A stretch of DNA of 61,337 nucleotides. Source: Fibrobacter sp. UWR4. GTDB lineage: Bacteria > Fibrobacterota > Fibrobacteria > Fibrobacterales > Fibrobacteraceae. Of this stretch, positions 32,581 through 48,466 are shown in pieces (position 1 is the stretch's first letter; each line of letters starts with the position of its first letter). The DNA lies in contig NZ_QGDU01000021.1 of NCBI RefSeq assembly GCF_003149045.1, positions 1-61,337 on the forward strand, written 5' to 3'. The notes below the pieces were generated by a model, which saw nothing but the letters and a program-made list of their open reading frames with translations, did no database searches and had not been told where the DNA came from. The translations under genes were made by a program, and so were the position numbers.

Positions 32581-32961
32581 CGAAGGACTAAATCTCGCTG
32601 TCGCCTGTGTTTGGTCCTTTGAATCGGGACGCAGTGTGGTAGAAGAAAGGACTAGACTGCGTGAGTGCGCACATTTGGTCCTTTTTTTTGTCCTTTCATT
32701 GATGGAAAATTAGTGCATCGAAGGACTAAATCTCGCTGTCGCCTGTGTTTGGTCCTTTGAATCGGGACGCAGTGTGGTAGAAGAAAGGACTAGACAGCGT
32801 GAGTGCGCGCATTTGGTCCTTTTTTTTGTCCATTCGTTGATGAAAAATTAGTGCATCGAAGGACTAAATCTCGCTGTTGCCTGTGTTTGGTCCTTTGAAT
32901 CGGGACGCAGTGTGGTAGAAGAAAGGACTAGACTGCGTGAGTGCGCACGATTAGTCCTTTG
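32581..32961 (+). repeat. Hairpin array A: three tandem 138-bp units, six conserved-arm hairpins
   Basis: Copies begin at 32581, 32719 and 32857 with an exact 138-bp period; the third is partial. Each unit has two 37-base hairpins with arms AAGGACTAA or AAGGACTAG and TTGGTCCTT (TTAGTCCTT in the last) around a 19-base loop. Arm starts are 32583, 32647, 32721, 32785, 32859 and 32923. The mismatched arm positions are G-U pairs in plus-strand RNA but not in minus-strand RNA. In units 1 and 2 the second hairpin is followed by eight T. The array lies between a + gene and minus-strand tRNA genes; 32545-32580 and 32962-33032 hold nothing I recognise. Confidence 0.85.
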
Positions 32962-33060: not shown

Positions 33061-33062
33061 AG

Positions 33063-33138
33063 CGGGATAGACGAGGCTTGAACTCGCAACCTCCGGCGTG
33101 ACAGGCCGGTGCTCTAACCAAAATTGAGCTACCACCCC
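33063..33138 (-). tRNA. tRNA-Asp (anticodon GTC)
   Basis: The minus-strand cloverleaf has acceptor GGGGTGG / CTATCCC, D arm GCTC..GAGC, anticodon stem CCGGC / GCCGG with loop CTGTCAC, and T arm GCGAG-TTCAAGC-CTCGT. Discriminator base is G. CCA is not encoded. It is the second tRNA of a two-tRNA unit. Confidence 0.92.
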
Positions 33139-33162
33139 AAATCGTTTCCGATTTTTCGGTAG

Positions 33163-33237
33163 TGGGCGATAACGGATTCGAACCGCTGACATTCTGCTTG
33201 TAAGGCAGACGCTCTGAACCAGCTGAGCTAATCGCCC
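33163..33237 (-). tRNA. tRNA-Val (anticodon TAC)
   Basis: The minus-strand cloverleaf has acceptor GGGCGAT / ATCGCCC, D arm GCTC..GAGC, anticodon stem TCTGC / GCAGA with loop CTTACAA, and T arm AGCGG-TTCGAAT-CCGTT. Discriminator base is A. CCA is not encoded. It lies 24 bases upstream of tRNA-Asp. Confidence 0.93.
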
Positions 33238-33626: not shown

Positions 33627-33656
33627 TTTCTCTTCGTTCAAGCCATTGTGGACTGA

Positions 33657-34109
33657 TTACCGGCCACCCTTGAAAGGGTCGGTGTATTCTTTTGTAGCCA
33701 GCTTATCTTCTATTTGATCAGCTTTCTCCTGCTCTCGGATATACTTCTGTACGGTCGCAGTGTTTAAACCCACCGTACTCACGTAATACCCCGTAGCCCA
33801 GAAGTGTTTATTACCGTACTTGTATTTCAAGTTGGCATGCCGCTCAAAAATCATCATCGCTGATTTACCTTTTAAGTAGCCCATAAAATTCGAGACCGAA
33901 TATTTGGGAGGTATTGAAAGGAGCAGATGAATGTGGTCGCACATTAGATGCCCTTCAATTATGGTCACACCTTTCCATTTGCACAAATCTTTTATAATTT
34001 GGCGGATATCAGCCCGCAATTCGTAAAAGATAACTTTGCGACGGTACTTGGGAGTAAATACGATATGGTATTTGCACACATACTTTGTGTGCGCTAGACT
34101 TTCTGCCAT
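33657..34109 (-). CDS. tnpA: IS200-type Y1 transposase TnpA
   Basis: The 150-residue single-strand DNA transposase has the HUH motif in CDHIHLLLSIP and the catalytic Tyr in VQKYIREQ. Conserved openings YVCKYHIVFTPKYRRKVIF and FMGYLKGKSAMMIFE are also present. Length is normal for IS200 TnpA and the frame is intact, so it may be active. The ATG at 34109 was chosen because GGAGA lies upstream and the protein starts with the usual short MAESLAHTKY. Its ribosome binding site lies in one arm of a long inverted repeat (34113-34176), which would lower translation. Confidence 0.92.
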   Translation of the reverse strand: MAESLAHTKYVCKYHIVFTPKYRRKVIFYELRADIRQIIKDLCKWKGVTIIEGHLMCDHIHLLLSIPPKYSVSNFMGYLKGKSAMMIFERHANLKYKYGNKHFWATGYYVSTVGLNTATVQKYIREQEKADQIEDKLATKEYTDPFKGGR

Positions 34110-34112
34110 TTT

Positions 34113-34176
34113 GGAATGTCTCCATTTTGATAGTGTTGGCTTGAACAACTAAACATTACCAATTTGGGGACATTCC
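34113..34176 (-). promoter_or_regulatory. Inverted repeat that can sequester the tnpA ribosome binding site
   Basis: In the minus-strand RNA, GGAAUGUCCCC (34176-34166) can pair with GGAGACAUUCC (34123-34113), 10 of 11 positions. The second arm contains the GGAGA ribosome binding site just before the tnpA ATG. Translation repression by a 5' stem is known for Salmonella IS200; here it is inferred from pairing. Confidence 0.55.
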
Positions 34177-34257: not shown

Positions 34258-34275
34258 AATCCCTAAAGGACTAAC

Positions 34276-45939: not shown

Positions 45940-47268
45940 ATGAATATTATTGAAGCCGTTTCCTACATGTGTGACCTGGCCAAGGGCCAGGCTGAACAGT
46001 TTGACGTAATCGCAAGCACCTCTCATTCCGAAGGCTTGTCCGTTTTTCAGGGCAAGGTCCAGAATACTGAAATTTCTGATTCCGTTGGCCTGGGTGTCCG
46101 TGTGATTAAGGATGGCCATCCGGGTTACGCCCATACGGAACGTCTGACCAAGGATGCAATCGCCCAGACCTTGAAGGATGCCCTCTGCCATACTCAGTGG
46201 ACAGAAGCAATTGATATTCAGTTGCCCTCTGCAGTGGATATCCCGGAAACTTACCCCAACTACAATCCGGCATTGGAATCCTTGAATCTGCAGCAGATGA
46301 AAGATTTCTGTATTGAACTGGAAAAGCAGACTTTTGCAAAATCCAAGGAAATCGAAAACATTCCTTATCTGGGCGCAGACATGAATACCGCATCTTCAGT
46401 CATTGCGAACAACACTGGCCTCATGTACAAAGGTAAGTCCAACTATGCCGCAGTAGGCGCTGGCGCTGTTGCGTCTCGTGATGGCGTCAAGAAGCTGGGC
46501 AATTACGTGAAGTCCGGTCGTGACTGGAATGAATTTTCCCTGGATGAAGTTGCGTCCAAGGCTGCAGAATATGCAACGGAACTGTTTGGCGCCAAGAAGA
46601 TTGAAGGCGGCAAGATTCCGGTGGTGTTCTCCGAACGAATTTCCGCACGCATTCTTGGGATGTATACATCACCCTTCATTGCGGAAGCCATGCAGAAGGG
46701 GCAGTCACGCCTGGCTGGTAAGGAAGGCGAAAAGATTGCAGGCGAAAAGTTCTCCATCATTAATGATCCTATGGGGGACATGTTTGTCCATAAGATTCGT
46801 TTTGACTCCGAAGGCTGTGTTGCCAAACGTGTGGAAGTGGTAAAGGATGGTGTGTTCACTAGCGCGCTGTACAATCTGGAAACCGCAGCGAAGGCTGGCT
46901 GTGAAACTACTGGTAACGGCTCCCGTGATTTCGGTAGCAAGATGGGTACCTGCTTTAACAACTTGCTGGTTCCGCCGGGAACGATGACTACCGCAGAACT
47001 TCTGAAGCTGTTCCCCAAGTGCCTGCTGGTGGTTCGCCTGGAAGGTGGTTCTGGTTGTAATTCCATTAGTGGCGAACTCTCTATGGGCGCTCATGGTTTC
47101 TGGTGCGAAAATGGCGTTATCCAGCATCCGGTGGATGGCGTTACCTTGAGTGGAAATATCTTTGACATCTTCCAGAATATAGTGGAAGTGGGGAACGAAT
47201 ACAAGGACAAGTTCAGCAGTTACCAGGTACCCGCTCTCGCAATAAGTGAACTGAGTGTAAGCGTTTAA
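45940..47268 (+). CDS. pmbA: TldD/PmbA family metalloprotease component (PmbA/TldE)
   Basis: The 442-residue protein has the TldE/PmbA pattern: GLSVFQGKVQNTEISDSVGLGVRVIKDGHPGYAHTE near the N-terminus, IPVVFSERISARIL in the middle, and LLVVRLEGGSGCNSISGELSMGAHGFWCENG near the end. It lacks the HExxxH zinc motif of TldD, as expected for the E subunit. TldD/TldE act on peptides such as microcin precursors and the CcdA antitoxin in E. coli. No tldD is adjacent. It is preceded by the HigA-like gene, which is of interest given that activity, but a link is speculation. Confidence 0.9.
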   Translation: MNIIEAVSYMCDLAKGQAEQFDVIASTSHSEGLSVFQGKVQNTEISDSVGLGVRVIKDGHPGYAHTERLTKDAIAQTLKDALCHTQWTEAIDIQLPSAVDIPETYPNYNPALESLNLQQMKDFCIELEKQTFAKSKEIENIPYLGADMNTASSVIANNTGLMYKGKSNYAAVGAGAVASRDGVKKLGNYVKSGRDWNEFSLDEVASKAAEYATELFGAKKIEGGKIPVVFSERISARILGMYTSPFIAEAMQKGQSRLAGKEGEKIAGEKFSIINDPMGDMFVHKIRFDSEGCVAKRVEVVKDGVFTSALYNLETAAKAGCETTGNGSRDFGSKMGTCFNNLLVPPGTMTTAELLKLFPKCLLVVRLEGGSGCNSISGELSMGAHGFWCENGVIQHPVDGVTLSGNIFDIFQNIVEVGNEYKDKFSSYQVPALAISELSVSV

Positions 47269-47298: not shown

Positions 47299-47562
47299 TT
47301 AGGACTATTTCCGTTTTTTTCGGGAAATAGTCCTTTCTTTTTTTGCTTGCCTGGAGACAGGGAAGGACTAATTTGCGCGATTTTTTCTTTTAGTCCTTTG
47401 CGCAGTCGAACGACGAAGGACTAAATCGCTTGAAATGTTCTTTTAGTCCTTGTGGCCTCATGAAACAAAGGACTAAATCCTTCAAATTCTGCTCTTAGTC
47501 CTTCGCCCCTGAAAAAAAGAAGGACTAACTTGCTCTAAACGGCTTGTTAGTCCTTCTTTTTC
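47299..47562 (+). repeat. Hairpin array B: five conserved-arm hairpins, regular spacing
   Basis: Hairpin 1 is AGGACTATTTCC..GGAAATAGTCCT (47301-47334) followed by a T-run, a good terminator for pmbA. Hairpins 2-5 start at 47363, 47416, 47468 and 47520 (spacing 53, 52, 52). Each is exactly 36 bases: AAGGACTAA, 18 variable bases, TTAGTCCTT. Loop sequences are unrelated, and so are the 16-17-base spacers between units. Hairpin 5 is followed by CTTTTT. The array fills the 313-base gap between convergent pmbA and lgt; no ORF is present. Its arms match array A at 32581-32961. Confidence 0.88.
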
Positions 47563-47581: not shown

Positions 47582-48466
47582 CTATTTCCCGGGCGTTGTA
47601 TCTACGTTCCTGCGCTTCTTTCCGCGGTAGATTAGCACAATCATCCAGATGATGCCGGCGAGGATCATCAAGCTGCAGAGGGTCTGGCCGCGGCTCATGC
47701 CGAACAGATCGTTACGTCCCAGGTGTGCGTCAGATTTGCGGAAGAATTCAATAAAGAAACGGAAAAGACCATACCCCATCAGGTAGAGGCAGGGCATCTT
47801 GTCCTTCAGGAATTGAACCTTACGTAGGTTGTATAAAATCACGAACAGGACAATTCCTTCGAATGTCATTTCGTAAAGCTGGCTGGGATGGTGGAGAATC
47901 GGATTTTCAACAAAACTGTCGTGAGCCATGGGGAACCACATGCCGATAGGACTGGTGGTCACTTCGCCATAAAGTTCACCATTGATAAAGTTGCCGAATC
48001 GTCCCCAGGTGTAGGCGAGGGGTGCTACCATGAATGCGACATTCAGACCTTTCCATACGTCCATCTTGTTTCGCTTGAGACCGATGAATGTAAAGATGAT
48101 TCCAAGAATGAGACCGCCATGGTAACTCATGCCGGCAATACCTGTAAAGTGGAAACCTAGGGCGTCGTGACTTACAGGAAGAATAATCTCGGAAGGATTT
48201 GCCAGGTAGTAGCCCGGCTTGTAGAAGAATACGTAACCAAGGCGAGCGCCGATGATGATACCTGCAATAATCCAGGTGAAGAGGCTGTCGATCTGGTCCT
48301 TGGTGAAGCCGATCTTTTCCTTCTTGTTCACGTAAGTATATGCTGCGTATGCGGTGGCAAAGGCAAAAATGTACATGACGCCATACCACTTTACTTCAAA
48401 GCTACCTAAGGCAAAGGCGGTGCCATCCATGTATGTGGGAATCAAGTTCCACCAGGATAAATCCAT
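47582..48466 (-). CDS. lgt: Prolipoprotein diacylglyceryl transferase
   Basis: The 294-residue inner-membrane enzyme transfers diacylglycerol from phosphatidylglycerol to the lipobox Cys of prolipoproteins. About seven TM helices are visible. The Lgt signature GRFGNFINGELYGEVT (about residues 156-171) contains the essential Arg and Asn; HPSQLYE and GMSRGQ are also present. AGGAGT lies before the ATG. The many lipoproteins in this window are its substrates. It follows the PBP gene on the same strand after 25 bases, so it is probably in an operon with orn and that gene. Confidence 0.95.
   Translation of the reverse strand: MDLSWWNLIPTYMDGTAFALGSFEVKWYGVMYIFAFATAYAAYTYVNKKEKIGFTKDQIDSLFTWIIAGIIIGARLGYVFFYKPGYYLANPSEIILPVSHDALGFHFTGIAGMSYHGGLILGIIFTFIGLKRNKMDVWKGLNVAFMVAPLAYTWGRFGNFINGELYGEVTTSPIGMWFPMAHDSFVENPILHHPSQLYEMTFEGIVLFVILYNLRKVQFLKDKMPCLYLMGYGLFRFFIEFFRKSDAHLGRNDLFGMSRGQTLCSLMILAGIIWMIVLIYRGKKRRNVDTTPGK

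Follow-up and report, generated by a model that had tools for sequence, protein, structure and literature searches.

In RAYT-REPIN systems, an enzyme gene is accompanied by a neighboring cluster of palindromes and by dispersed palindromes with free spacers (PMC3116915, PMC8049555) and the palindrome end carries a GTAG or CGTC tag (PMC3733652). A second point of reference is the EDxHD endonuclease I-Bth0305I, which was reported as a dimer on a target of nearly 60 bp (PMC3943268). The array described here lies in a 61,337-nucleotide stretch of Fibrobacter sp. UWR4 (hereafter the window) and, with a probability of roughly two in three, represents a series of double-stranded DNA sites that belong to a cognate nuclease-like protein, largely undescribed. 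No description of such arrays, or of their pairing with a nuclease-like gene, was found in the open-access literature (subscription papers lay outside the scope). The earlier note on this DNA knew of no described family with these arms, and this holds in databases and open-access literature alike.

The array occupies positions 47301-47554, in the convergent intergenic region between a pmbA/tldD-like gene and lgt, and consists of five 34-bp palindromes of the form AGGACTA-N20-TAGTCCT. Its units and the flanking genes are as follows.

45940-47268, + strand: flanking pmbA/tldD-like metallopeptidase gene (Pfam PF19289/PF01523/PF19290)
47301-47334, unstranded: palindromic unit 1 (AGGACTA-N20-TAGTCCT); doubles as a strong hairpin of the intrinsic-terminator type for the + strand gene
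47364-47397, unstranded: palindromic unit 2 (AGGACTAA-N18-TTAGTCCT), by pattern search
47417-47450, unstranded: palindromic unit 3, by pattern search
47469-47502, unstranded: palindromic unit 4, by pattern search
47521-47554, unstranded: palindromic unit 5; read on the - strand, it also resembles a terminator hairpin for lgt
47582-48466, - strand: flanking lgt, prolipoprotein diacylglyceryl transferase (Pfam PF01790)

The earlier note had described four hairpins of fixed 9+18+9 geometry with a period of 52-53 bp, preceded by a first hairpin, and with loops and spacers unlike one another. All of this is borne out. An exact search of the window for AAGGACTAA-N(10-26)-TTAGTCCTT gives four matches, at 47363, 47416, 47468 and 47520, always with N18, where 100 dinucleotide shuffles give an expectation of 0, and the direct spacings between these matches are 53, 52 and 52 bp. 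Unit 1 falls in the same 34-bp frame as units 2-5 and stands 63 bp (6 turns) from unit 2. The loops and spacers do differ from one another, which rules out simple tandem duplication as the origin of this array; such duplication is real in a few other arrays (the second array of the window, L266, L254, L256 and L269).

A de novo scan of the window for arrays returned two only, whereas none of 120 simulated 2.5-kb pieces gave any array with the same detector. The second one is of the same arm type:

32584-32958, unstranded: second array, six 35-bp units (AGGACTAR-N19-TTRGTCCT), by de novo scan

Its units are spaced by 64 or 74 bp, and a 138-bp block is present three times, a tandem duplication. 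This array adjoins tRNA-Asp and tRNA-Val genes (- strand, 33062-33237). Further along, the - strand at ~33650-34150 reads like a putative IS200/IS605-type transposase gene, and a copy of AAGGACTAA occurs at 34266, near the end of this IS200/IS605-like element.

Arrays with GGACTA arms recur well beyond the window. The 3.6-Mb genome holds about eight of them, and the enrichment of the paired arms, whose absence would have told against the earlier note, is strong, the exact arms with a spacer of 18-19 occurring at 13 places against 0 for the reversed control pattern. A search of Fibrobacter genomes, which the same note had suggested, shows that nine of the 80 genus genomes carry the exact 34-bp motif, at 1-30 copies each. 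Outside the genus, the same arrays are found, among the matches listed, in a Clostridiales MAG from goat omasum (G096), with a pitch of 53-54 bp. The G096 arrays (L192, L182 and L216) lie close to TACCCC-GGGGTA palindromes resembling CsoR/CstR-type operators. Two other possibilities were discarded. The arms are not a genome-wide uptake or motif signal, as AAGGACTAA is not over-represented overall (59 copies vs 97 for the reversed control), and the high match count in the Oscillatoriales cyanobacterium USR001 comes from another repeat, long and dispersed, in which the motif is embedded. In USR001 (L116, L123, L138 and others) and in Kamptonema (L128, L150), the unrelated repeat is a dispersed, long imperfect palindrome with AGGACTAA-N18-TTAGTCCT, present at many loci.

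The spacing of the units follows the DNA helix. Unit-to-unit distances in GGACTA arrays are best fitted by a period of 10.46 bp (R 0.95, n=112), and the fit holds when restricted to the 69 distances that are neither duplicated nor orthologous (R 0.94); arrays with other arms give 10.55 bp (R 0.94, n=88). The distances themselves are 52-54, 63-64, 74, 83-84, 94-95, 105-106, 115-116, 137, 158 and 221 bp, with a few exceptions to whole-turn spacing, such as 42.5 and 97. At the lgt locus, the distance between the third and fourth hairpins is 84 bp in G024 and G073, 53 in G009 and 73 in G057, such that orthologous arrays differ by ~3 and ~1 turns. Between the lgt arrays of G024 and G073, the arms differ at 2/64 sites and the loops and spacers at 63/243 (p 1e-5), with G009 and G057 behaving similarly, and the variable segments of orthologous arrays show point changes. 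A ACAAATTAAC-like motif recurs between the units of the lgt-locus arrays (L081 in G024, L084 in G073, L088 in G009 and L099 in G057) and is also seen near other arrays of the genus. Each unit contains two inverted half-sites of ~9 bp at a fixed distance (consensus WAGGACTAAW) around a middle that is free in sequence and, on average, A/T-rich. Such an architecture is that of a palindromic double-stranded DNA site suited to a dimer, with the copies set along a single helical face.

The same palindromes could instead act as RNA hairpins, either as tandem terminators or as an RNA scaffold, and an RNA with repeated protein-binding hairpins was among the roles offered in the earlier note. Covariation argues against that role. 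Loop pairing beyond column composition gives no significant overall signal (p 0.07), the first three loop positions being slightly paired (z 3.0, 1.9 and 1.7) and the remaining positions not at all, and at arm position 6 (T/C) pairing is at chance (101 vs 100.4), with the two arms varying independently. Pairing does co-vary at the outermost positions (-1 and 1), apparently because genomes differ in whether both arms have A or T (and A or G) at these positions. Rfam gave no match above its gathering score, and only sub-threshold ones. Folding favors RNA at the two ends of the array, where unit 1 has a predicted RNA fold of -17.9 kcal/mol followed by TTCTTTTTTT and unit 5 one of -24.7 kcal/mol with a T-rich tail on the - strand, but the folding of the inner units is no more than moderate (z -1.8 to -2.5), and a stable hairpin with a U-tract, looked for in every unit as a test for intrinsic terminators, occurs in the outer units only. 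The arrays resemble tandem intrinsic terminators in their outer units, with stem and U-rich tail near gene ends, and differ from them in inner units that lack such features, in helical phasing and in a linked protein gene.

Placement also lends something to the RNA interpretation. Dispersed GGACTA arrays sit at gene 3' ends, in 14 convergent, 12 codirectional and 0 divergent intergenic regions, compared with 6/13/7 for the intergenic regions of the window (p 0.01 for divergent, p 0.045 for convergent), and at the lgt array locus the array-less genome G052 has an ordinary terminator. A transcription barrier between convergent genes, another role named in the earlier note, is partly right: the outer two units are good intrinsic terminators, but many arrays lie elsewhere than between convergent genes. 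Because overall loop complementarity is not significant, arm position 6 varies independently and spacing is by whole turns, the palindromes are not primarily RNA hairpins. As that reading also leaves the 10.5-bp phasing without a reason, we consider it very unlikely, and the palindromes are very probably recognized as double-stranded DNA rather than as RNA.

Double-stranded sites could also be ordinary operators of an unlinked transcription factor, since cooperative regulators typically have phased half-sites arranged as palindromes. Against this, the dispersed GGACTA arrays avoid divergent promoter regions (0/26), and the arms co-vary with a neighboring nuclease-like gene rather than with the genome in general, and we regard this explanation as extremely unlikely. 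The earlier note had listed both helically phased operator sites and repeated enzyme targets; the phasing, at 10.5 bp, and the enzyme, a nuclease-like gene beside an array, both held, and the regulator fared as just described.

That gene, encoding ~280 aa, adjoins one GGACTA array in each nuclease-bearing genome. Homologous array-adjacent proteins of this size were first read in G049, G009 and the Clostridiales G096, by inspecting the array-adjacent genes of those genomes in which copies are few (gene calls near arrays came from a codon-score script). Extension by tblastn found nuclease-like genes beside arrays also in G000, G024 and G057, and such genes are present in G075 and G070 as well. 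The genome of the window itself encodes a matching gene at contig 7:99153-100001 (- strand); a four-unit array of its own lies upstream, in the interval that separates it from lspA.

We next consider what this protein family may be. Neither Pfam nor NCBIfam gave a credible match for any of 72 aligned members, and a test for HUH (Y1) enzymes found no Pfam transposase match among these 72, the C-terminal fold being PD-(D/E)XK-like. The predicted model (pLDDT 91) shows a hairpin of long helices carrying a beta tip and, at the C terminus, a PD-(D/E)XK-type domain. In structural comparison, the fold nearest to the C-terminal domain is I-Bth0305I (Z 8.7, rmsd 2.6, 89 aa), with Bax1 (Z 8.2) and Vsr (Z 6.8) also close, and the N-terminal helical part returned only generic coiled-coil matches. 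SKSE, PDF and WEHxG motifs are conserved, and K178, E180, D210, E225 and H226 are invariant in 84/84 members. The protein can be described as a predicted nuclease domain of PD-(D/E)XK/Vsr/EDxHD-like type behind a helical N-terminal domain.

Of the 80 genomes of the genus, 48 encode the family, each with as many as eight members; outside the genus, it occurs in one sister-genus genome of the phylum and in 6/398 genomes of the phylum of G096. Relatives in the latter phylum have very long or regular arrays (L341 of G318; L353 and L349 of G238), with at least 16 units at 53 bp, 9 at 75 bp and 6 at ~74 bp. Family genes are chromosomal and lie between housekeeping genes; among annotated phages and viral contigs there was no full-length relative and one partial relative (73% coverage). 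Recurrent neighbors, considered as partner genes, were explained by shared loci such as miaB. At the miaB-like gene locus (L279-L287, L299-L301, L307, L311 and L319), different genomes carry family members with at least two or three arm types, as would be expected of a hot spot or of arms that diversified in situ.

Arms and proteins are paired locus by locus. At 67 of 84 family loci we found three or more phased palindromes bearing the arms of the paralogue encoded there. These were scored as upstream at 55 loci and as 'downstream' at 12 others, some of which are mis-picks (in G000, a same-arm array ~11 kb away was picked instead of the adjacent one); at the other 17 loci the detector returned no array. 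Control loci, which were lgt loci without GGACTA arrays, had an array in 0 of 25 cases. Across the paralogues, more than 20 arm sequences share the same geometry and phase, including TGCTACYA, GGGTACCAAA, GCAGACCAAA, TTACATACT, GGGGCRTATAA, GTACCTATAA and GGTTACTAA. The arms track the protein tree, with 11 Fitch changes for 11 arm families over 47 tips against at least 29 in shuffles, and GGACTA arms appear on several separate branches of the midpoint-rooted tree. The correlation of arm distance with protein distance is weak (Mantel rho 0.12-0.18), and an assignment of arm specificity to the N-terminal domain by this test was dropped, as it did not separate the domains.

The pairing extends to whole genomes. 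GGACTA arrays occur in 7/7 genomes with a GGACTA-arm nuclease and in 3/73 without one (80 genomes, p 4e-8), a count in which gene-adjacent arrays are included; 5 of the 7 are shown to have dispersed ones, and for single gene-adjacent arrays the same-genome association could be hitch-hiking. GGACTA arrays without a detected cognate gene are found in G073, G011 and G056, all incomplete (82-88%), and the absence of a gene is soft because several genomes are incomplete MAGs. G084, which is 100% complete, has kept TGCTAC units with no family member detected. Dispersal was checked genome-wide for two arm types, and both lie in intergenic regions, the GGACTA arrays at the gene 3' ends noted above and the TGCTACYA arms in 11 genomes, plus one likely chance match. 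Together with the tree, this pairing suggests that the arms are likely to be recognized specifically by the nuclease-like protein.

A nuclease gene beside a regular alternation of conserved and variable segments is also seen with CRISPR and TIGR arrays. Here, in contrast, the repeats are inverted rather than direct, unit spacing varies by whole helical turns, and orthologous variable parts drift by point mutation, without spacer-like gain or loss. The EDxHD/Vsr-like homing endonucleases (I-Bth0305I) are similar in the fold of the C-terminal catalytic domain, with Bax1 and Vsr nearly as similar, and in conserved residues of E/D/H type; they differ in the N-terminal domain, and the gene described here is not in an intron or phage, has many chromosomal sites and has arms adapted to each paralogue.

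These nuclease features raise the possibility that the system targets its own chromosome, the arrays being cut under some condition, such as stress or phage, to give programmed chromosome breakage or recombination between arrays. The invariance of the nuclease residues in all 84 proteins fits such a role, as do the half-site/spacer/half-site layout, which is like that of dimeric nuclease targets, and a match of the PADLOC candidate-defense model PDC-S68 (E 2e-22), although PDC-S68 is a candidate model only and matches the C-terminal domain only. Yet a cell would pay a high price for dozens of such sites between housekeeping genes, and no partner or sensor gene is generally conserved beside the nuclease-like gene across arm types, and we judge self-targeting unlikely.

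Mobility offers a further explanation, in which the palindromes would be REPIN-like non-autonomous elements copied to new places in the genome by the nuclease-like protein in place of a RAYT transposase, their conserved ends and free spacer reflecting substrate recognition. The organization of RAYT-REPIN is indeed matched closely, with inverted conserved ends, a variable spacer constrained mainly in length, extragenic dispersal, arrays beside the cognate enzyme gene and one repeat class per enzyme version (PMC3116915, PMC8049555). In line with mobility, G052, the closest relative by Lgt (94% identity), lacks all GGACTA arrays together with the GGACTA-type gene. However, no recent copies were seen between arrays at different loci, visible duplication is mostly local and in tandem, and mobility alone predicts neither 10.5-bp phasing nor whole-turn indels; copying of this kind is rather unlikely. 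The differences in kind are also plain. The enzyme here has a PD-(D/E)XK/EDxHD-type fold, and that of RAYT is an HUH (Y1) tyrosine transposase; the arms are 8-10 bp, and WAGGACTAAW has no GTAG or CGTC tag; the spacer is fixed at ~18 bp, the arrays are phased at 10.5 bp and copies number in the tens, not hundreds. Compensatory changes in the hairpin spacer, a RAYT-REPIN feature, are absent here, with no significant overall loop complementarity. Since this enzyme has no relation to RAYT, the palindromes show neither the tag nor spacer covariation, and the phasing is new, the arrays and their nuclease-like gene are not a member of RAYT-REPIN.

Our best reading is a two-part system, consisting of a sequence-specific nuclease-like protein and its cognate phased arrays of double-stranded DNA sites. 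A symmetric dimer would sit on each palindrome, with the N-terminal domain reading the half-sites and the PD-(D/E)XK/EDxHD-like domains held over the spacer, a geometry that would make the protein a natural analogue of ZFN and TALEN. Successive dimers may then align along one face of the helix. Where the array lies upstream of the gene, binding could provide autoregulation, for which we see an even chance. Dispersed arrays could retain the protein on the DNA, serving for docking or titration, a tentative proposal for their main role beside regulated self-cleavage and element spread. Selection would maintain them for as long as the genome has the protein, and its loss would be followed by theirs; their outer units may double as intrinsic terminators for neighboring genes. 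Given the conserved nuclease residues, it is a serious alternative that the protein cuts in a regulated manner or helps to move the arrays, and an active nuclease with many chromosomal sites would need a restraint, which is a point against our reading.

In broader terms, the chances are balanced that these arrays represent an undescribed class of bacterial two-part system: diversified, sequence-specific PD-(D/E)XK/EDxHD-like proteins, every one of which has an arm code of its own, with phased palindromic arrays upstream of the gene and across the chromosome, exchanged horizontally between gut Fibrobacter and Firmicutes, and offering natural ZFN/TALEN-like recognition modules with readable target codes. 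A repeat of no known owner is hereby linked to a specific, widespread and unannotated protein family, and the pairs of arm sequence and protein, with over 20 different arms, amount to a natural protein-DNA code. It becomes possible to test directly by what rules recognition works, what helical phasing is for and why a cell keeps many nuclease sites in its own genome. The system suggests that a REPIN-like lifestyle, in which an enzyme lives with a population of palindromes, may have arisen again with a second, unrelated enzyme.
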